IMG/VR virus record: IMGVR_UViG_3300030085_003139
Location: 1 to 59,661 of that record
Length of the DNA stretch: 59,661 nucleotides
Reading direction: 5' to 3' (one strand)
Source of the DNA: a virus
Positions 3,209 to 59,397 of the stretch are shown here, in pieces; the first letter of the stretch is position 1; each line of letters begins with the position of its first letter. The position numbers and the translations under genes are program-made. The notes below the pieces were generated by a model. That model saw only the letters and a program-made list of their open reading frames with translations. It did not search any database and was not told the origin of the DNA.

Positions 3209-3454
3209 ATGACAAATAAATTAGAAAATATGATCATAGACGCTAAAGTCACAACCGAGGTATTCACCGACGCGCTCGATGAATGCTTCGGTTACGCCTG
3301 CGACCCCAGTGTCGTCTATACATCAGCTCTTCAAACTGTCCTGCTTAGTATGCTACGGCACGCCCACGATAAACAAAGCGCCATAGAGACGGCCAAGTTC
3401 TGTATTACAGCCGCCTCAATCATGGACGAACAAGAAGAAAGCACCATCCACTAA
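3209..3454 (+). CDS. Hypothetical early protein
   Basis: An 81-residue, largely helical protein starting MTNKLENMII. A GTG start at 3194 is also possible, and neither has a strong ribosome site. It contains ALQTVLLSMLRHA and a C-terminal acidic tail. The stop codon overlaps the next start (TAATG at 3452-3456), so the two are translationally coupled. No family is recognised. Confidence 0.6.
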   Translation: MTNKLENMIIDAKVTTEVFTDALDECFGYACDPSVVYTSALQTVLLSMLRHAHDKQSAIETAKFCITAASIMDEQEESTIH

Positions 3455-3642
3455 TGATATTCATTAATAAAGAAAAACACCTCATCGACGTCATATCCTC
3501 GCGCAAGGCCGCTGAGAAAGAATACGACGATATCGTTTGGGATTACGGGGTCAACGACCCACGGCTCGCGGAGCTCGCAAAACAAATCGAAGAATACGAA
3601 GAGCTCGAAAGAGACGGCGTCACCATCGCACCGAATTTTTAA
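3454..3642 (+). CDS. Small charged hypothetical protein
   Basis: A 62-residue charged helical protein starting MIFINKEKHL, rich in Glu and Lys (AELAKQIEEYEELERDG). Its stop is immediately followed by the first parS sequence at 3643, with no gap. That adjacency makes it the natural neighbour to test for interaction with the parS locus, but nothing in it resembles ParA or ParB. Confidence 0.65.
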   Translation: MIFINKEKHLIDVISSRKAAEKEYDDIVWDYGVNDPRLAELAKQIEEYEELERDGVTIAPNF

Positions 3643-3658
3643 TGTTTCACGTGAAACA
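3643..3658. promoter_or_regulatory. parS-like centromere site 1 (perfect)
   Basis: TGTTTCACGTGAAACA is an exact match to the 16-bp palindrome bound by chromosomal ParB/Spo0J proteins across bacteria. It begins on the base after the stop of the preceding gene. Chance of any one exact 16-mer in 60 kb is about one in 10^5, and three copies are present. Confidence 0.9.
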
Positions 3659-3691
3659 ATTGAAAATCGTTTAAAAACAATGACTTACGGG

Positions 3692-3763
3692 TGCGACACT
3701 ATGTCGCATAGTAAATACCAGTAAGCTGTGGTACTCTTACGTATCGAACAAAGTTCGATACGT
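3692..3763. repeat. Cluster of dyads between the two parS sites
   Basis: Two strong inverted repeats lie between the parS copies: TGCGACA/TGTCGCA (3692-3708, 3-bp loop) and ACGTATCGAAC/GTTCGATACGT (3739-3763, 11-bp arms, 3-bp loop). A weaker TACCA/TGGTA pair (3716-3733) lies between them. None is followed by a T-run, so they are not terminators. They may be protein-binding sites or part of a replication or partition locus. Confidence 0.7.
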
Positions 3764-3798
3764 TATTTGACATCGTTGATTTTAGCCGACTAGGGCAA

Positions 3799-3814
3799 TG
3801 TTTCACGTGAAACA
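3799..3814. promoter_or_regulatory. parS-like centromere site 2 (perfect)
   Basis: A second exact TGTTTCACGTGAAACA, 156 bp centre to centre from site 1 and 48 bp before the next start codon. A TTGACA at 3767-3772 could be a -35 box for the downstream gene, but no good -10 follows it. Bound ParB here would overlap any such promoter. Confidence 0.9.
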
Positions 3815-3861
3815 ATCGAGCCCGATAATGTCTATTCCACTTTTAATATGAGGTTAATATT

Positions 3862-4611
3862 ATGGTTAAAATAAAACCAGTTAACAATGCATCCAGCGAC
3901 ACAAATCGGTATTGCGGACCGGCTGTGATTAGCGCTGTAACGGGAATGACTACAGGAGAAGCTGCAAGGCTAATCCGACATGTCAGCGGTCAGAAAATGG
4001 TGAAGGGTTCACATACCTTCCACGTTCTTCGAGCCCTGTCACTTTGTAACATTCACAATAGGAGAATGACGGTTGCCACCAGATTTAGCGCTCCGACGTT
4101 AAATCAATGGCTTAAAGGTTCAAAAGACATGCGAACCTCTGGCCGAGTTTTCCTGATCGTTGCAGGCAATCATTTTCAGTTGGTCGAAGGCCGACGATAT
4201 GTTTGCGGAAGAACACGAGACATAGTCAGTGTTCGAAGCAAGTATGTGAAGCGACGATGTCGAGTCGAAACGGTTCACGAGCTAATCAGCGAAGGTAGAA
4301 TACAAATACCAAACGCAGCTCGTAAGCCCGTGGATCACGCGGCCAGCGATAGAGCCAAAGCACAACGCTTTGCTAAAAAGCTGGACGTCACAATTGATAT
4401 CGAAAGATATTACGATTATGACAACCGCTTCTCCCAGTATTGGGTCAATGGATATAAAGACGTTGATGCCAATGGCGAGGACATTGATTTTTCCCACGAA
4501 GGAATTATCGACGGTCACTGCGCTTACGACTGGGGCGAAGTTCTTGATAAGCTTCACGCCATCGCAGCCTACCGCGAAGAGCATGGATACAATATCAAGG
4601 AGGACGCGTAA
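3862..4611 (+). CDS. Papain-like/C39-like cysteine peptidase-fold protein (putative)
   Basis: A 249-residue protein. The N-terminal part shows NRYCGPAVISAVTG (Cys at residue 18), the usual Cys-Gly-Pro-Ala helix start of papain-like and C39-like peptidases. Near residue 95-105 comes VFLIVAGNHFQLVEG, a strand with a His like the catalytic His of that fold, followed by VCGRTRDIVSV. The last 80 residues are Asp/Tyr-rich and unrecognised. It may be a phage protease, a transglutaminase-like enzyme, or a fold relative. It lies just downstream of the parS pair with a TATGAGGTTAAT ribosome site. Fold assignment is moderate, activity is inference. Confidence 0.5.
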   Translation: MVKIKPVNNASSDTNRYCGPAVISAVTGMTTGEAARLIRHVSGQKMVKGSHTFHVLRALSLCNIHNRRMTVATRFSAPTLNQWLKGSKDMRTSGRVFLIVAGNHFQLVEGRRYVCGRTRDIVSVRSKYVKRRCRVETVHELISEGRIQIPNAARKPVDHAASDRAKAQRFAKKLDVTIDIERYYDYDNRFSQYWVNGYKDVDANGEDIDFSHEGIIDGHCAYDWGEVLDKLHAIAAYREEHGYNIKEDA

Positions 4612-5270: not shown

Positions 5271-5503
5271 TTATATGTATATATGGCCAGAAAAATAAAA
5301 AAAATAATTTTTCAAAAAGTAGCCGCAACCCGTGTAACCGTGTAACTTTCCCAAATTCCCCTTATTATATAAGGGCTTATTAGTTACAAAGTTAGTTACA
5401 CTGTATTTTTACAGGTGTAACCGTTCCTTAATATCAAAAAGTCGTTATGCGGGTTTGAAAATAAAAAAAATAATTTTTGGTTTTCTGGCTATATATACAT
5501 AAA
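5271..5503. repeat. Repeat-rich non-coding element before terS: terminal inverted repeats, direct repeats and GTGTAAC iterons
   Basis: The gene-free stretch 5263-5569 holds a compact element. Its ends are inverted copies of a 23-24 bp sequence (5271-5294 and 5481-5503) that differ by one base and one indel. Just inside is a perfect 21-bp AT-rich direct repeat (5292-5312 and 5458-5478). The core has GTGTAAC words at 5332, 5340, 5415 (+) and 5395 (-), GTGTAACCGT occurring twice, and a CCCTTAT/ATAAGGG dyad near 5359. No reading frame fills it. Iterons beside an AT-rich repeat resemble a replication origin; the place before terS also fits a packaging site; the inverted ends could also mark a MITE-like insertion. 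Confidence 0.75.
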
Positions 5504-5569
5504 GCGTGTTTACAAGAAGATATCCTTCGGTTTAAGGTGAGCTTACTTTATTTTACGAAGGAGAACAAA

Positions 5570-6208
5570 ATGAATAAAGCGGATCGTTATGTCATTCCCG
5601 AAGGTGCGGAAAGACCGAAGAAGAAATACTTAAAAAAATACTTGCCTGAAGATAAACCCTTAAACAGGCGTGAAGAGCTCTTTGTTAAAGAACTGGTTGC
5701 TAAAGACGGCCAGATAACTTTGCGCGATGCAGCCATCAATGCGGGATATCCGCCAAAGTCTGCTCACGTGCGAGCTCACGAACTTACCAACCCAGCGATT
5801 AAACCAAACGTTGTGAAAGCTATTAAGCAGTTTAGAGCTGAGCTGGATCAAAAGTATGGCGTCGAATATAAACGGCACCTTAGAGATTTACAGGTGATCC
5901 GCGATGCTGCTTTGGATAGTGGCGCCTTTAGTGCTGCCGTCCAAGCTGAGTACCGTCGAGGACAAGCGCAAGGGGACATTTACGTTAACAAGTCTGAAAT
6001 AAGGCATGGAACTATTGATAGCATGTCAAAAGAAGAAGTGCTAAATGCTATTAAAGAACTAAAGCAAACATATGACCCAGTCACTATTGACATTACACCC
6101 GTCGAAGAAAGCGACAAAAACCGCGACAAAGCCAGAAAGCGCGTTTTGGGCTCAGTTTCGGAAGAAAGTAACGACACTGAGGAAGTCTTGGAAGATGGAA
6201 AGAATTGA
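5570..6208 (+). CDS. terS: Terminase small subunit (putative)
   Basis: A 212-residue protein. The segment RREELFVKELVAKDGQ...AAINAGY is the helix-turn-helix pattern of phage small terminases (Terminase_2-like, residues about 25-60), followed by a long central helical region and an acidic C terminus. It would recognise the packaging site and recruit the large subunit. The start at 5570 follows AAGGAG and is preferred over 5477, which lies inside the upstream repeat element. Unusually, the large subunit gene is 4.9 kb away. The assignment rests on the HTH pattern, size and context. Confidence 0.7.
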   Translation: MNKADRYVIPEGAERPKKKYLKKYLPEDKPLNRREELFVKELVAKDGQITLRDAAINAGYPPKSAHVRAHELTNPAIKPNVVKAIKQFRAELDQKYGVEYKRHLRDLQVIRDAALDSGAFSAAVQAEYRRGQAQGDIYVNKSEIRHGTIDSMSKEEVLNAIKELKQTYDPVTIDITPVEESDKNRDKARKRVLGSVSEESNDTEEVLEDGKN

Positions 6209-6738: not shown

Positions 6739-7422
6739 ATGACAAATGCTCAAGTAAAAATTAATCCAAGTTATCTTAAAGCCGCGATGATATGCGCATC
6801 AACTGAGGGAACGCGTTATTATTTAAACGGCGTTCATTTCATTATTACTAAAGATTGGGTTCGCTTAGTGGCTACCGATGGTCATCGCGCGTTTTATTAT
6901 AAAGACGCGCTGGAAGTGACCACGCGCAGCGCTTTTCCAGATAATAGTTTGGAAGTTATAGTCGATTTAAAAGACTTGAAAAAAGCTTTAACAGGCATCA
7001 AAGTAAATGCTGGGGCGATTGATGTAATGTTTGAAAAAGAGCATGCTTTAATCAATGGGGTTCAATGCCAGTATGTCGACGCAACGTATCCAGATACTAC
7101 CCGTATCATTCCGCAATCTGATTACCAGCCAGAATGTTATCAAAAGTTAAATGACCAGCCCTTTGAAATTCAGTTGGACGCGGCATATGTTGGGGACTTT
7201 GGTAAAATGGCAAAATTGCTAGGGGTTAGTCCCTCAAACGTCTTTATTCAAAAATTTGGATTAAATCCCGCAATTGTTAATTTTGGGAAGGATCAAACTT
7301 GCTTCGCATTGATTATGCCCAAGCGTCTTTTGGATAGCGCTGGGGCGGGAATTCCGTTTCATACCATGCATTCGATTGCGTCGACCGTTGTTAATAAACC
7401 CCAGCTTCGGGAGGCGTCTTAA
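6739..7422 (+). CDS. Sliding-clamp-like protein (DnaN domains 2-3 only)
   Basis: A 227-residue protein. RYYLNGVHFIITKDWVRLV followed by ATDGHR (about residues 26-50) matches the second domain of bacterial DNA polymerase III beta clamps. YPDTTRIIP (about residue 115) matches the FPDYRRVLP hinge, and the C terminus CFALIMPKRLL resembles the beta-clamp end (VVMPMRL). The first of the usual three domains (about 115 residues) is missing. The start has AGGAGG at good spacing and no upstream coding extension is visible. The size equals two-domain clamps such as T4 gp45. It may tether the phage polymerase or divert the host clamp loader. No clamp-loader gene is seen. Confidence 0.75.
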   Translation: MTNAQVKINPSYLKAAMICASTEGTRYYLNGVHFIITKDWVRLVATDGHRAFYYKDALEVTTRSAFPDNSLEVIVDLKDLKKALTGIKVNAGAIDVMFEKEHALINGVQCQYVDATYPDTTRIIPQSDYQPECYQKLNDQPFEIQLDAAYVGDFGKMAKLLGVSPSNVFIQKFGLNPAIVNFGKDQTCFALIMPKRLLDSAGAGIPFHTMHSIASTVVNKPQLREAS

Positions 7423-9952: not shown

Positions 9953-10236
9953 AAAATATAACCAAACATGTAGGGCGCCTTAAACTTGTAAGGCGTCTTA
10001 AAAATAGTCACGTCGGCAATCCCCAGTTTGAGCTGGCGATTATTGAACATGAAAAGCAAAATTTAGGCTGGACGTTTAGAACGCCTAAAAATTCAATGCT
10101 TGGCTATTCTATCCAGAATTATCTGGATAAAATTGTTATCGTTTCAATTGGGACGCATTACGGCTGCGCGACATTAAACAGTGTCGAATTGTCCCCATGC
10201 CAAGCGCCGTTTATTTATCAAGAGGGGGGCGCGTAA
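9949..10236 (+). CDS. Small basic hypothetical protein
   Basis: A 95-residue protein starting MKNITKHVGRLKLVRRLKNS, strongly basic at the N terminus and beta-rich afterwards (KIVIVSIGTHYGCATL). It overlaps both neighbours (ATGA upstream, TAATG downstream), so the three genes form one coupled unit behind cassette 3. No family is recognised. Confidence 0.65.
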   Translation: MKNITKHVGRLKLVRRLKNSHVGNPQFELAIIEHEKQNLGWTFRTPKNSMLGYSIQNYLDKIVIVSIGTHYGCATLNSVELSPCQAPFIYQEGGA

Positions 10237-10942: not shown

Positions 10943-10958
10943 TGTTTCACGTGAAACA
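10943..10958. promoter_or_regulatory. parS-like centromere site 3 (perfect)
   Basis: A third exact TGTTTCACGTGAAACA, 127 bp before the terL start and 7.1 kb from the pair at 3643/3799. It lies between the GC-rich repeats and the terL promoter region. Confidence 0.9.
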
Positions 10959-11042
10959 TCGTAAACAGTAAAAAGGTTTGCATGTTTCGGTTTTGCTGGT
11001 AAAAGTTTGGGTATAAAAATTTTTAAAAATTCAAAACATATC

Positions 11043-11061
11043 ATCTTATAATATCTTATAT
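11043..11061 (-). promoter_or_regulatory. terL promoter region with tandem ATATAAGAT-type boxes
   Basis: Read on the minus strand, ATATAAGAT (11053-11061) and TTATAAGAT (11043-11051) are repeated at a 10-bp period, as at 2638-2656. On the plus strand the same bases contain a perfect -10, TATAAT (11047-11052). No good -35 is visible, so an activator may be required. Boxes overlapping the -10 would suit a repressor or phase switch for late genes. Confidence 0.6.
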
Positions 11062-11084: not shown

Positions 11085-12545
11085 ATGCCGACTATAAATG
11101 CCGAGAATGCCAGCGAAAGATTATTGAAGCTTCAATATCGGTTGGCGCAGATCGAAAAGAAGGAGCGGTCATACGAAGATTTTCTAACTTTTGTGAAACT
11201 TATGTGGCCAGAATTTATTGCAGGAAACCATCATAAGATAATCGCAGATAAGTTGCAGAGGATCGCATCGGGCGATTTAAAAAGATTAATCGTCAATATG
11301 CCTCCGCGACACACGAAATCAGAGTTTGCATCCTTCTTGTTCCCCGCGTGGATGATGGGGCGCAATCCCAACATGAAGATAATTCAGGCAACACACACAA
11401 CCGAGCTCGCCGTGGGCTTCGGTAGAAAAGTGAAGAACCTTCTGGACAGAGACGACTACAAGGAACTTTTTGACACGCGATTAGCTGCGGACTCAAAAGC
11501 TTCTGGACGTTTCGACACGGATCGCGGCGGCATGTACTATGCTGTTGGTGTGGGCTCGAACTTAGCGGGACGTGGTGGTGATCTTGTGATAATCGACGAC
11601 CCGCACTCGGAACAAACCTTAATGTCGAACAATGGTTTTGACGACGCGTGGGACTGGTACACTGGCGGACCTCGACAGCGTTTGCAGCCCGGCGGCGCCA
11701 TTGTTGTGGTTATGACGCGCTGGCATGAGAAGGATCTGACGGGGCAGCTTATTCGATCGCAGGCTAGGGACGACAAAGCGGATCAATGGGAGGTTGTCGA
11801 GCTCCCTGCCATAATGCCAAGCGGCAAATCTTGTTGGCCAGAGTATTGGTCTTTAGATGATCTTGAGCGTGTGAAGGCTTCTATTCCGCCCAGCAAATGG
11901 AACGCGCAGTACCAACAGGATCCCACGGGCGACGATAACAGTATCTTGCGCCGTGAGTGGTGGAACGTGTGGGAAGAGGATGATGTTCCTGAGCTTGAGT
12001 ATGTGATACAGAGTTATGACACGGCGTTTTCGAAGAAGGAGACTGCGGACTATTCTGCTATTACGACGTGGGGTGTGTTTTATCCAAAGCGTGACGGGGC
12101 GCCATCTTTGATACTTTTGGATGCGAAGAAGGGTCGGTGGGATTTTCCTGAGCTCAAGCGTGAGGCGTGGGATCAGTTTAACTTCTGGGATCCAGAGACC
12201 GTGATCATTGAAGCGAAGGCGACGGGCATGCCGTTGACGCACGAGCTGCGGAACATGGGTATACCTGTTGTGAATTTTACGCCGAGTCGGGGGAATGACA
12301 AGGTAAGTCGGGCTCATAGTATAGCGCCGTTGTTTGAGGCGGGGATGGTTTGGGCGCCAGATGAGCAGTGGGCACATGAGTTAATTGAGGAGTGTGCGGC
12401 GTTTCCGAACGGTGAGTATGACGATTATGTTGATAGCATGACGCAGGCGTTGATGCGTTATCGGCAGGGTAATTTTGTACAACTGCCCACGGACGATTGG
12501 GAAGAGAGTAGTGATTACGTGGAACCGAGGACGTATTATGGGTAA
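11085..12545 (+). CDS. terL: Terminase large subunit
   Basis: A 486-residue packaging ATPase-nuclease that pumps DNA into the prohead. The ATPase has a Walker A-type loop PPRHTKSE (residues 73-80) and Walker B LVIIDDPHSE (about 167-176). The C-terminal RNase H-like nuclease has YDTAFSKKETADYSA, VIIEAKATG and EYDDYVDSM. Length is normal for the family. The start follows a weak CAGGAG site. It heads the head-gene operon. The small subunit is not next to it but at 5570, across the accessory block. Confidence 0.97.
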   Translation: MPTINAENASERLLKLQYRLAQIEKKERSYEDFLTFVKLMWPEFIAGNHHKIIADKLQRIASGDLKRLIVNMPPRHTKSEFASFLFPAWMMGRNPNMKIIQATHTTELAVGFGRKVKNLLDRDDYKELFDTRLAADSKASGRFDTDRGGMYYAVGVGSNLAGRGGDLVIIDDPHSEQTLMSNNGFDDAWDWYTGGPRQRLQPGGAIVVVMTRWHEKDLTGQLIRSQARDDKADQWEVVELPAIMPSGKSCWPEYWSLDDLERVKASIPPSKWNAQYQQDPTGDDNSILRREWWNVWEEDDVPELEYVIQSYDTAFSKKETADYSAITTWGVFYPKRDGAPSLILLDAKKGRWDFPELKREAWDQFNFWDPETVIIEAKATGMPLTHELRNMGIPVVNFTPSRGNDKVSRAHSIAPLFEAGMVWAPDEQWAHELIEECAAFPNGEYDDYVDSMTQALMRYRQGNFVQLPTDDWEESSDYVEPRTYYG

Positions 12546-15166: not shown

Positions 15167-17596
15167 ATGGGACTAAGGCCAAAGAATCCAGTTGCTTCTT
15201 TTGTAGAACGGGAAAACGACGATCCGCTAATTGAAGAGGCTGGCGTTGATCTGGATATAGAGATGCCGGGCACACGAGTTGCTTCGGACGAACCTGTAGA
15301 TGGCATTGATTTTATTGACGAAGAAGACGGTGGGGTCATTGTAGACTTTGATCCGCAGGCCATGTCTATGGCGGACGGCGGTGATTTTTTTGCCAACTTA
15401 GCGGAAGACATGGATTCTGGTGATTTGGGTGCGATATCCAGTGATTTAATATCTCAGTATGTTTCGGCTAAGGAAAGCCGTGGAGACTGGGAAGAAGAAT
15501 ACGATAAGGGTTTGGATCTGCTTGGTTTTAAGTACGAAGACAGAACGCAGCCTTTTCGCGGCGCTACGGGCGTAACGCATCCTATGTTGGCGGAAGCCGC
15601 CACGCAGTTTCAGGCTCAGGCATTCAATGAGCTCTTACCACCAGAAGGACCTGTGCGCACGCAGATTATGGGGCAGTTAACTCCTGAGAAAGAGGCACAA
15701 TCCAAGCGCGTTAAGGAGTTTATGAACTACTACATAACCAATGTTATGGAAGAATATACCCCTGAAATGGATCAAATGTTGTTTTATCTGCCCTTGGCAG
15801 GCTCAACATTCAAGAAAACATACTTTGATGAGGCAATGGGGCGCGCAGTAAGCAAATTTGTTCCCGCAAAAAACCTTGTCGTCCCGTATGACGCAGCAGA
15901 TTTGGAAACATCTCCCTTTATTGCGCAAGAAATACGCATGCCGTGGAACAATCTACGCAAACTACAGGTCGGAGGTTTCTATGTTGATGTCCCTGTAAGC
16001 CCGTCTCAGGCGCCGATGGACGATACAACCGATACAATTGACGGTATCGACGGAATGTCCGCATCAAACATTGATTATGACGTCACATTGCTGGAATTTC
16101 ACGTGGATTTGGAATTGCCGGGCTATGAAGAGAAGGATGAAGAGGGCGAACCAACAGGAATTATGGTTCCTTACGTCGTTACGATAGCCGAGGACACTGG
16201 TGCGATACTGGCTATACGCAGAAATTTCCGCGAGGACGACGATCAGAAGACAAAAATCCCATATTTTACGCATTATAAGTTTTTGCCGGGCTTCGGGTTC
16301 TATGGTTTAGGGTTAATTCATACAATTGGCGGTCTTTCACGCACCGCGACCGCTGCATTGCGGCAATTGATTGACGCGGGGACACTTTCTAACCTTCCAG
16401 CGGGTTTCAAGGCTCGCGGCCTACGGATCAGGGAAGATGCAGAACCGTTACAACCGGGTGAATTTAGGGATGTAGACAGCCCCGGCGGTGCTATTCGCGA
16501 TAGCTTGATGCCCTTGCCGTTTAAAGGACCTGACGCTACGTTATTTAACCTGTTGGGCTTTGTTGTTCAGGCGGGGCAGCGATTTGCAACAATCACGGAC
16601 ATGAAGGTTGGTGACGGCAACCAACAGGCAGCGGTAGGAACGACGGTTGCTATGCTGGAACAGGGGGCTCGTGTAATGAGCGCTGTTCACAAGCGTCTTC
16701 ACTACGCAATGAAGAACGAGTTTAAGATTCTGGCGCGTGTTATGTCGGAAAGCTTACCGCAAGAATACCCCTTTTCTGTTGCGGGTGGCGATCAGGCGGT
16801 TATGGCCAGCGATTTTGACAATCGTGTTGACATCATACCTGTATCAAATCCAAATATTTTTAGTCAGGCGCAGCGCATTGCTTTGGCGCAGACACAGATG
16901 CAGATGGCGGCTCAGGCGCCAGATCTTCACGATATGTACGAGGCGTACAAACGGATGTATGACGCATTGGGCGTTCGGGATATAGATAAGATCTTAAAAC
17001 CCAAACCAAGTCAGGAGCCACAGCCAAAAGATCCTGCACAAGAAAACATTGATGCTTTGGATCAGATACAGCTTCGAGCTTTTCAGGGGCAAAACCACGA
17101 CGCACATATTATGTCACATCTTGTGTTTGGTGCGTCAGGCATTGTTCAACAACAGCCAATGGTTGCGGTTACTCTTCAGAAGCACGTTATGGATCATGCG
17201 CGCGTGAAATCTCAGGAGATGGCGTTACAGCAGCTTGGCGTGCAGGAAATGACACCAGAGATCCAAGTGCAGTTTGAGCAGTTGGTTGCTCAGAACATTG
17301 CGCAGGAAATGCAGGCAATGAAACAGTTGTCCGCTCAGATCACAGGTGAGCAGGGCGCCCCAGATCCATTAATCGGACTTAAAGAGAAAGAGCTTCAGAT
17401 TAGGCAGCAGCAGGTTCAGGCCAACATTGCTAACGATCAGGCGGAGCTCCAGTTGGATCAGGCTAAAGCACAAGAACGAGCACGCGAATTTGATGAGCGC
17501 ATGGATCAGCAAGAGCGCTTGGCAAATAGAAAATTGCAAGCGAGCGCAGAACGTGAGATAATGCGATTACAGGCACAACAGCAACGGAGACAATGA
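15167..17596 (+). CDS. Portal protein
   Basis: An 809-residue protein forming the dodecameric DNA channel of the capsid. The order terL, two proteins, portal and then scaffold/capsid fits. The region WEEEYDKGLDLLGFKYEDRTQPFRG onward matches large marine podovirus portals. An acidic N-terminal leader (residues 1-75, containing DGGDFF) precedes it. The last about 180 residues are Gln/Glu-rich coiled coil (QQQVQANIANDQAELQLDQAKAQ), like the barrel of P22-type portals. It follows a GGAG ribosome site. Confidence is high from length, region and order. Confidence 0.88.
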   Translation: MGLRPKNPVASFVERENDDPLIEEAGVDLDIEMPGTRVASDEPVDGIDFIDEEDGGVIVDFDPQAMSMADGGDFFANLAEDMDSGDLGAISSDLISQYVSAKESRGDWEEEYDKGLDLLGFKYEDRTQPFRGATGVTHPMLAEAATQFQAQAFNELLPPEGPVRTQIMGQLTPEKEAQSKRVKEFMNYYITNVMEEYTPEMDQMLFYLPLAGSTFKKTYFDEAMGRAVSKFVPAKNLVVPYDAADLETSPFIAQEIRMPWNNLRKLQVGGFYVDVPVSPSQAPMDDTTDTIDGIDGMSASNIDYDVTLLEFHVDLELPGYEEKDEEGEPTGIMVPYVVTIAEDTGAILAIRRNFREDDDQKTKIPYFTHYKFLPGFGFYGLGLIHTIGGLSRTATAALRQLIDAGTLSNLPAGFKARGLRIREDAEPLQPGEFRDVDSPGGAIRDSLMPLPFKGPDATLFNLLGFVVQAGQRFATITDMKVGDGNQQAAVGTTVAMLEQGARVMSAVHKRLHYAMKNEFKILARVMSESLPQEYPFSVAGGDQAVMASDFDNRVDIIPVSNPNIFSQAQRIALAQTQMQMAAQAPDLHDMYEAYKRMYDALGVRDIDKILKPKPSQEPQPKDPAQENIDALDQIQLRAFQGQNHDAHIMSHLVFGASGIVQQQPMVAVTLQKHVMDHARVKSQEMALQQLGVQEMTPEIQVQFEQLVAQNIAQEMQAMKQLSAQITGEQGAPDPLIGLKEKELQIRQQQVQANIANDQAELQLDQAKAQERAREFDERMDQQERLANRKLQASAEREIMRLQAQQQRRQ

Positions 17597-58048: not shown

Positions 58049-58242
58049 ACTCGATAACCTTTACTACGCCATCTGGAAGTTATTTTTTTTAGTTGCGCCT
58101 GAGCGCGCCATAAGTCCTGTTGCGCGCTCGGCGGGGCATCGTTTCGTCGTGCCGTGTCTTCAAGATTATCGACTATGGTATTCCAATACTTCAAAGTTCT
58201 TTCATCTAAGTAATGCAGTGGAATACGTTCGTCTTCAGTCAT
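58045..58242 (-). CDS. Small helical hypothetical protein
   Basis: A 65-residue protein starting MTEDERIPLHYLDERTLKYW, rich in Arg and Asp, helical, ending SRWRSKGYRV. Last gene of the leftward early operon, convergent with the RHH gene. Overlaps the HTH gene by 8 bp. No family is recognised. Confidence 0.65.
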   Translation of the reverse strand: MTEDERIPLHYLDERTLKYWNTIVDNLEDTARRNDAPPSAQQDLWRAQAQLKKITSRWRSKGYRV

Positions 58243-58441
58243 TTTTTATTTGTCTCCTTCCGCCACGATTGTCTTTCCTACGGAAAAACAAGTTGTACCG
58301 CTTAGCTTGGCTGTAGACGCACTGTGGAGAGACGTCCAGCGCGCGAGCGGTTTCAGCTATAGTATACCCATCTTCAGAAAATTTTCGATAATTTTCTAAC
58401 GGTATACCTTTTTTAAGCGGATGCTTGCTCGGTTCACTCAT
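58235..58441 (-). CDS. Small helix-turn-helix protein
   Basis: A 68-residue basic protein. YTIAETARALDVSPQCVYSQAKRYNLFF (about residues 26-53) is a typical recognition helix-turn-helix, as in phage homeodomain-like regulators. The basic ends would help DNA binding. Overlaps both neighbours by about 8 bp. Probably an early transcription regulator. Confidence 0.7.
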   Translation of the reverse strand: MSEPSKHPLKKGIPLENYRKFSEDGYTIAETARALDVSPQCVYSQAKRYNLFFRRKDNRGGRRQIKND

Positions 58442-58679: not shown

Positions 58680-59005
58680 GATACCCTCCAGACACGATAG
58701 GCGCCGTCCCTTCTGTCGAGTTTGGCCGCTTTCGTAACAACGCCTTTGACGCCGCGTTTTTTGCCCCAGAAATTATGTATAGAAGCTTTAAGGATCTTTG
58801 CCTCCTTACTGTCGGCTACTAATACACTGCTGCCAGCAACCATTTTGCTGGCCAACAAAGACCATCGCCCAGATGTTTCAGGTACGGGTATCTTTTGCGT
58901 TACGTCATACAAAACTTTACCCGCTTCTTTTGCCTCGTGAATAGTGCGGACATCAGAAGTCTCTGTTTTTCTACCAACTTGATCCAAAATAAACGTCCCC
59001 CTCAT
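58676..59005 (-). CDS. Hypothetical protein
   Basis: A 109-residue basic protein starting MRGTFILDQVGRKTETSDV. Strand-helix pattern (SGRWSLLASKMVAGSSVLVADSKEAKILKASIHNFWGKKRGVKG) suggests a small nucleic-acid-binding alpha/beta domain, but no family is recognised. Four-base overlaps couple it to both neighbours in the early operon. Confidence 0.65.
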   Translation of the reverse strand: MRGTFILDQVGRKTETSDVRTIHEAKEAGKVLYDVTQKIPVPETSGRWSLLASKMVAGSSVLVADSKEAKILKASIHNFWGKKRGVKGVVTKAAKLDRRDGAYRVWRVS

Positions 59006-59397
59006 ATCGCGATGACCACGGCAACAATTAAAATTGCAATCAGTAGAGCCCAGATAACCATACGCTTACGCTTCTGACTTTCTGTTTCTGCTACCAGTTG
59101 CCCCTGAACAGAACGTTCGACGGCTTCTACAAAAGGATCGACCTTTGGCTCCTCAATCGTGCGTATACGATCGCGCGCCACGGGCGTCTCTTTGGACTTG
59201 GCGTTTTGTTTAGCCCATTTGTTGATTTCGGTTTTAGACCAATGTTTTTTCTTTTTGTATTTTTGTTGACTTGGACTAATACCCGTTACTTCTTCGGGCT
59301 CTGGAAACGTTTTAAGCCGTGTACGACGGTAAATGGTTTGTACAGACAAACCCGTGATTTCCGACACTTGGTCGATATTATATAATTGTTTTGGCAT
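59002..59397 (-). CDS. Tail-anchored membrane HTH protein
   Basis: A 131-residue protein. The N terminus YNIDQVSEITGLSVQTIYRRTRLKTFPEP is an AlpA/MerR-type winged HTH. A Lys-rich linker follows (KYKKKKHWSKTEINKWAKQN), then an acidic stretch and a C-terminal membrane segment (last about 19 residues, VIWALLIAILIVAVVIAI) preceded by RKRK. It would tether DNA or regulate from the membrane. Downstream of the join gene, behind a GGAGGAAAA ribosome site. Confidence 0.75.
   Translation of the reverse strand: MPKQLYNIDQVSEITGLSVQTIYRRTRLKTFPEPEEVTGISPSQQKYKKKKHWSKTEINKWAKQNAKSKETPVARDRIRTIEEPKVDPFVEAVERSVQGQLVAETESQKRKRMVIWALLIAILIVAVVIAI

Follow-up and report, generated by a model that had tools for sequence, protein, structure and literature searches.

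Genome and surroundings of the parS sequences

The window, the whole stretch of DNA analyzed, is a record of 59,661 bp from a marine virus of bacteria. The ends of the record overlap by 101 bp with 1 mismatch, and it therefore probably represents a complete circular assembly. The genome is ∼90% coding and encodes a family A DNA polymerase, an AEP-type primase, UvrD and SNF2 helicases, a beta-clamp-like protein (positions 6739 to 7422; DNA_pol3_beta_2, E value of 8e-10), and a DNA methyltransferase, as well as small HTH proteins at positions 58235 to 58441 and 59002 to 59397. The terminase large subunit (TerL) shows 63% identity with that of the marine phage 023Pt_psg01, 62% with Pelagibacter phage HTVC027P, 61% with DSL-LC04, and 54% with HTVC023P. 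No isolated phage shows a DNA-level match to the locus region. In bacterial genomes, relatives of the terminase are limited to five contigs, none longer than 25 kb, from marine MAGs of mixed phyla, and they give no host assignment.

Three exact copies of the 16-mer TGTTTCACGTGAAACA, the idealized chromosomal parS consensus of ParB work (PMC7383237), lie outside the called ORFs of this genome (Table 1). Two of them form a pair with 140 bp between the copies, and no further similar site with up to 3 mismatches is present in the window. Dinucleotide shuffles yield 0.32 sites at this threshold and never three. The scan thus agrees with the initial annotation, which had described three exact copies, a pair 156 bp apart (correct as the start-to-start distance) that flanks strong dyads, and a negligible probability of chance occurrence; the proximity of the third copy to terL is a point absent from it. 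The proximity to oriC typical of chromosomal parS is lacking, with the sites being placed on a virus record.

Table 1. Positions of the parS copies and neighboring features in the window
Feature	Position	Strand	Remarks
62-aa ORF	3454..3642	+	Upstream of the pair; replaced by different sequence in L257, two parS still there
parS copy 1, TGTTTCACGTGAAACA	3643..3658		Directly 3' of the stop codon of the 62-aa ORF; perfect in L254, L255, L256, L257, and L258
Dyad TGCGACA-CTA-TGTCGCA	3692..3708		Between the parS pair; largely retained in four close relatives
Dyad ACGTATCGAAC-AAA-GTTCGATACGT	3739..3763		11-bp arms, 3-nt loop
Conserved block with TTGACA (3767-3772)	3762..3798	+	Just upstream of parS copy 2
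parS copy 2, TGTTTCACGTGAAACA	3799..3814		Perfect in 5/5 relatives
Gene of 249-aa protein	3862..4611	+	3' of the parS pair; conserved among relatives
Terminase small subunit	5477..6208	+	
parS copy 3, in 18-bp perfect palindrome ATGTTTCACGTGAAACAT	10943..10958		142 bp upstream of terL
Promoter-like TTAAAA-18-TATAAT	11023..11052	+	Between parS copy 3 and terL; 10/12 matches
Terminase large subunit (terL)	11085..12545	+	

The DNA between the paired copies is itself structured. Changes in both arms of the dyad at 3739 to 3763 preserve the pairing in L254, L255, and L256. The predicted RNA fold of positions 3659 to 3798 is far better than that of shuffled sequences (z score of −4.3). It contains two dyads that form hairpins, and relatives show compensatory changes in one of the two; a structured leader or operators of the phage may account for this. 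The conserved block in front of copy 2 is a possible promoter, and no consensus −10 element is found for it. The 249-aa protein has no match in Pfam or PHROG. It contains the motifs NRYCGPA and GNHFQL, which are cysteine peptidase-like with no family match, and an AF2 model with a pLDDT of 42 is uninformative and was set aside. A replication origin at the pair is rejected: the minimum of the raw cumulative GC skew lies nearby, at 2623, but the gene strand switch at the same place means that this minimum is not independent evidence for an origin.

Upstream of terL, the window and the relatives L177, L009, L179, L187, and L205 share another conserved element (like CATGTTCGTCACAAACAATAT), together with GGGTCCC/GGGGCCC motifs that occur repeatedly; these are possible promoter or packaging signals. 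The position of the terL-proximal parS relative to the TATAAT-like element varies among relatives, from upstream to downstream of it.

Searches of the window proteins for ParB_N (PF02195), HTH_ParB (PF17762), AAA_31/ParA (PF13614), and tyrosine integrase (PF00589), each with a working control, give no match. This bears out the description of the phage as one without parA and parB and, for tyrosine integrases, the statement that it has no integrase. The proteins scanned include no plasmid-type replication initiator or partition protein, and no lysogeny genes or other signs of lysogeny are found.

Conservation of the 16-mer in relatives

A close relative of the 249-aa protein is encoded on five viral contigs, each of which carries two perfect parS copies upstream of the gene, with a spacing of 155, 156, or 251 bp. 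One of them, L257, retains both copies even though the sequence upstream is unrelated. All three copies, in the layout of the window and with the third ∼7 kb past the pair, are present in G022 (31.7 kb) and G024 (27.9 kb), the two longest of these records.

Among 80 terminase relatives in IMG/VR, many show a parS with 0 to 2 mismatches 23 to 306 bp upstream of terL. In 70 TerL family members, counting the window and leaving out the four named reference phages, the sequence extends ≥430 bp upstream of terL, and 30 of them have a parS within these 430 bp. On the TerL tree, this trait requires 4 changes, compared to 22 with shuffled labels, and it is present in every member of the eight-member clade of the window. 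The loci of the TerL relatives contain 25 exact sites, compared to 0 for 149 palindromes with scrambled half-sites.

Beyond the nearest relative, the 100 bp on each side of the terL site show 0.41 to 0.58 identity to the window, compared to 0.45 to 0.49 for shuffled sequences, and the 16-mer shows little or no change despite flanks at random identity. In 37 distinct sites with up to 2 mismatches, substitutions affect positions 1, 5, 12, and 16 and, in a single case each, positions 8 and 9, leaving the central ACGT nearly invariant. ParB tolerates changes at those parS positions, and the variation is confined to them. These sequence comparisons indicate purifying selection acting on the 16-mer alone. 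Within a coding gene, parS-like sites lie in frame as VSRET or VSHET at position 8414 of L217 and position 10382 of L231, both 7699 bp from the start of the terL match in these two diverged relatives.

Some family members without the terL site have a parS elsewhere. The near-complete relatives G009, G011, and G013 contain none, and no exact 16-mer is present in the four named isolates, of which HTVC027P has a one-mismatch site (CGTTTCACGTGAAACA at 16412), HTVC023P a diverged site, and 023Pt_psg01 and DSL-LC04 none. The trait is therefore not essential to the family and is dispensable in parts of it. The initial annotation had treated a lack of the 16-mer at these positions in related genomes as evidence against its reading. 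For the pair, this objection does not arise, as all five relatives retain it; for the third site the outcome is mixed, with presence in 30 of 70 members clustered on the tree and three near-complete relatives without any parS.

Occurrence in other phages and on plasmids

The exact 16-mer is found in at least 119 stretches of IMG/VR, compared to 5 for one scrambled palindrome, and 38 stretches carry two copies no more than 30 bp apart. These loci contain one to six sites each, with 61% of the sites outside ORFs, compared to 15% of random positions. When INPHARED (50,697 annotated phage records) is searched with a 30-mer that embeds parS, 344 records match, 248 of them at ≥99% identity. Redundant entries are part of this count, as are some Listeria records that are possibly fragments of chromosomes. 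With a scrambled palindrome in the same flanks, the two controls yield 6 and 3 records.

Exact scans of whole records verify parS in thirteen unrelated isolate lineages. Exact copies are present in the Gordonia phages Woes (2) and PatrickStar (2), the Ruegeria phages V10 (3) and DSS3P8 (3), Lactobacillus phage Lpa804 (3), bajarodino virus 72 (5), Enterococcus phage Athos, the Microbacterium phages Scumberland and RobinRose, the Arthrobacter phages GreenHearts and Pureglobe5, Clavibacter phage CMP1, and the Microviridae phage phi-CA82. Bacillus phage B103 has one exact copy, at 15611 in gene 15, and one variant copy, at 10120; Arthrobacter phage OurGirlNessie has a variant only, and Listeria phage P100 has a parS according to BLAST. 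B103 and P100 are virulent. Firmicutes, Actinobacteria, and Proteobacteria are thus all hosts to unrelated phages with the same 16-mer, which also recurs in Microviridae. Escherichia, Salmonella, and Klebsiella phages, with hundreds of records in the collection, are not among the matches listed, which fits with enteric bacteria not being known to have chromosomal ParABS.

The placement of the sites shows two further patterns. In the 5.8-kb bajarodino virus genome (L174; PQ006098.1), annotated as an inovirus, exact copies start at 712, 1182, 2767, 4108, and 5764, and three of the five begin no more than 2 bases after a stop codon. In 7 of ∼20 isolate lineages (Woes, PatrickStar, V10, CMP1, Goe23, JacoRen57, and Ldl1), a parS lies within ∼4% of a genome end, a post hoc pattern that may hint at a role during DNA entry into the cell.

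ParB_N is found above the cutoff in 2 of 50 parS-bearing records, many of which are fragmentary viral contigs. These two are Scumberland and a viral contig, and three further records match more weakly. None of the four isolates in a separate set has it, and Scumberland is the only one above the cutoff among the verified isolates. On plasmids, the 16-mer matches 18 of 72,556 records, several of them whole chromosomes; with the cutoff being stricter than that of the phage search by about 1 matching base, the contrast between phages and plasmids is qualitative.

Host ParB as the probable reader of the sites

The most probable reading of these data, with a probability of roughly 0.7, is that the three sites are genuine parS, selected so that the chromosomal ParB of the host can load onto them in infected cells. 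On sequence grounds, the reader is very probably host ParB, because the sites match the consensus exactly, no ParB of the phage is found, selection acts on the 16-mer alone, the substitutions are ParB-like, and the site recurs in unrelated phages. A chance origin is rejected by the shuffles and the scrambled-palindrome controls, in which such sites are rare or absent. Host contamination or misassembly is likewise rejected because parS is present in independent relative contigs and complete isolate genomes. No ParB of the phage's own is found in the ParB_N and HTH_ParB searches, although the lack of Pfam matches would be compatible with a highly diverged reader encoded by the phage.

The strongest alternative, itself unlikely, is that the sites act as a decoy, with many replicated parS-bearing genomes titrating host ParB and disturbing chromosome segregation or cell cycle control. 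Multiple sites per locus in IMG/VR, the five copies in the small bajarodino virus genome, and the parS of the virulent phages B103 and P100 agree with this, but titration needs no fixed place, whereas the pair in all five relatives and the terL site stay put while their flanks change. Less likely again is a borrowed centromere, through which a plasmid-like prophage would segregate via the host ParABS system. Such a role is in line with the missing tyrosine integrase and the closeness of the two paired sites; it is at odds with the lack of a recognized replication initiator among the proteins scanned, with the scarcity of the 16-mer on plasmids under their stricter cutoff, and with the occurrence of parS in virulent phages. 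It also finds no close plasmid relative, as all plasmid matches of TerL are below 60% identity, which leads to the rejection of plasmid kinship.

Slightly more doubtful still is an operator of a phage-encoded regulator that uses the same palindrome by coincidence. The sites lie near putative promoters and other dyads, and the small HTH proteins would be available as regulators, but no HTH_ParB domain is found, the unrelated phages with the same 16-mer would require many convergent regulators, and the sites hold no fixed position relative to the predicted −10 element. This variable position fits better with spreading or loading than with a steric operator. An RNA hairpin or transcription terminator is very improbable. 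The 16-mer is self-complementary, copy 1 follows a stop codon directly, and the intervening region folds well; a hairpin, however, is expected to have a free loop, which the near-invariance of the center and the restriction of stem changes to set positions contradict. No terminator-like site (GC-rich hairpin and T run) occurs at 3400 to 4000, with one such site at 11100 to 11114, away from any parS.

If host ParB is the reader, a ParB dimer would bind parS and close as a CTP clamp, which, from what is established of ParB biology, would slide outward over kilobases and bring contacts with ParA and SMC. ParB spreads from parS, with plasmid ParBs silencing neighboring genes over kilobases and keeping other enzymes off the DNA, whereas SMC is recruited by chromosomal ParB (review PMC7333895). 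The resulting ParB-coated patch may organize the phage DNA and tune nearby transcription in the lytic cycle; since the sites lie near the putative promoter at 3.7 to 3.9 kb and the terL promoter, on either side of the predicted −10 element in different relatives, such a patch is likelier than a precisely spaced operator.

The rarity of the 16-mer on plasmids and its presence in virulent phages point to a function in the lytic cycle and away from stable inheritance. Silencing, SMC- or ParA-mediated organization, and ParB titration in lytic growth are possible benefits. Organization of DNA or control of genes in the lytic phase is the likeliest use, at somewhat less than even odds; ParB titration is a good deal less likely, positioning or partition of an episome and uses of other kinds each rank a little below titration, and shielding of the DNA from nucleases comes last. 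Partition as an episome, one of the benefits proposed in the initial annotation, emerges as the weakest of those proposed, with no lysogeny genes found and the 16-mer rare on plasmids.

On a wider scale, it is reasonably likely that centromere mimicry is a general strategy that many unrelated phages, among them virulent ones, have acquired repeatedly in hosts with ParB, and by which host ParB, and via it SMC or ParA, would assemble on phage DNA in lytic infection. ParB-parS is among the best-studied bacterial DNA-protein systems. Loading of host ParB on phage DNA would connect phage infection with the segregation of chromosomes and the loading of SMC and make a host segregation protein a phage host factor, perhaps a target of conflict. 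Searches of open full-text literature, which covers few subscription journals and no preprints, give no earlier description of phages with host chromosomal parS and without parAB; the type of site is already known, and its use on parAB-less phages appears to be new.

The sites share with the chromosomal parS of bacterial ParABS systems the identical idealized 16-bp consensus, variation found mainly at the outer and fifth positions, and clustered copies, but they are found in a phage genome with no detected parA or parB, where their neighbors are a putative promoter and the terminase gene instead of oriC. The nearest named phages by TerL (54 to 63% identity), HTVC027P, HTVC023P, 023Pt_psg01, and DSL-LC04, are similar in gene content and differ in having no exact 16-mer. 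Plasmid and phage-plasmid ParABS systems likewise place a centromere on a mobile element. P1, F, and the extrachromosomal mycobacterial prophages encode their own ParA and ParB and use their own centromere sequences, whereas neither gene is found here and the site is of the host chromosome type. IMEX phages such as CTXphi, which borrow the host dif/XerCD system, offer a parallel in that a phage copies a short chromosomal site and host machinery acts on the phage DNA; the site, the protein, and the outcome are different, with no integration implied for the parS-bearing phage.
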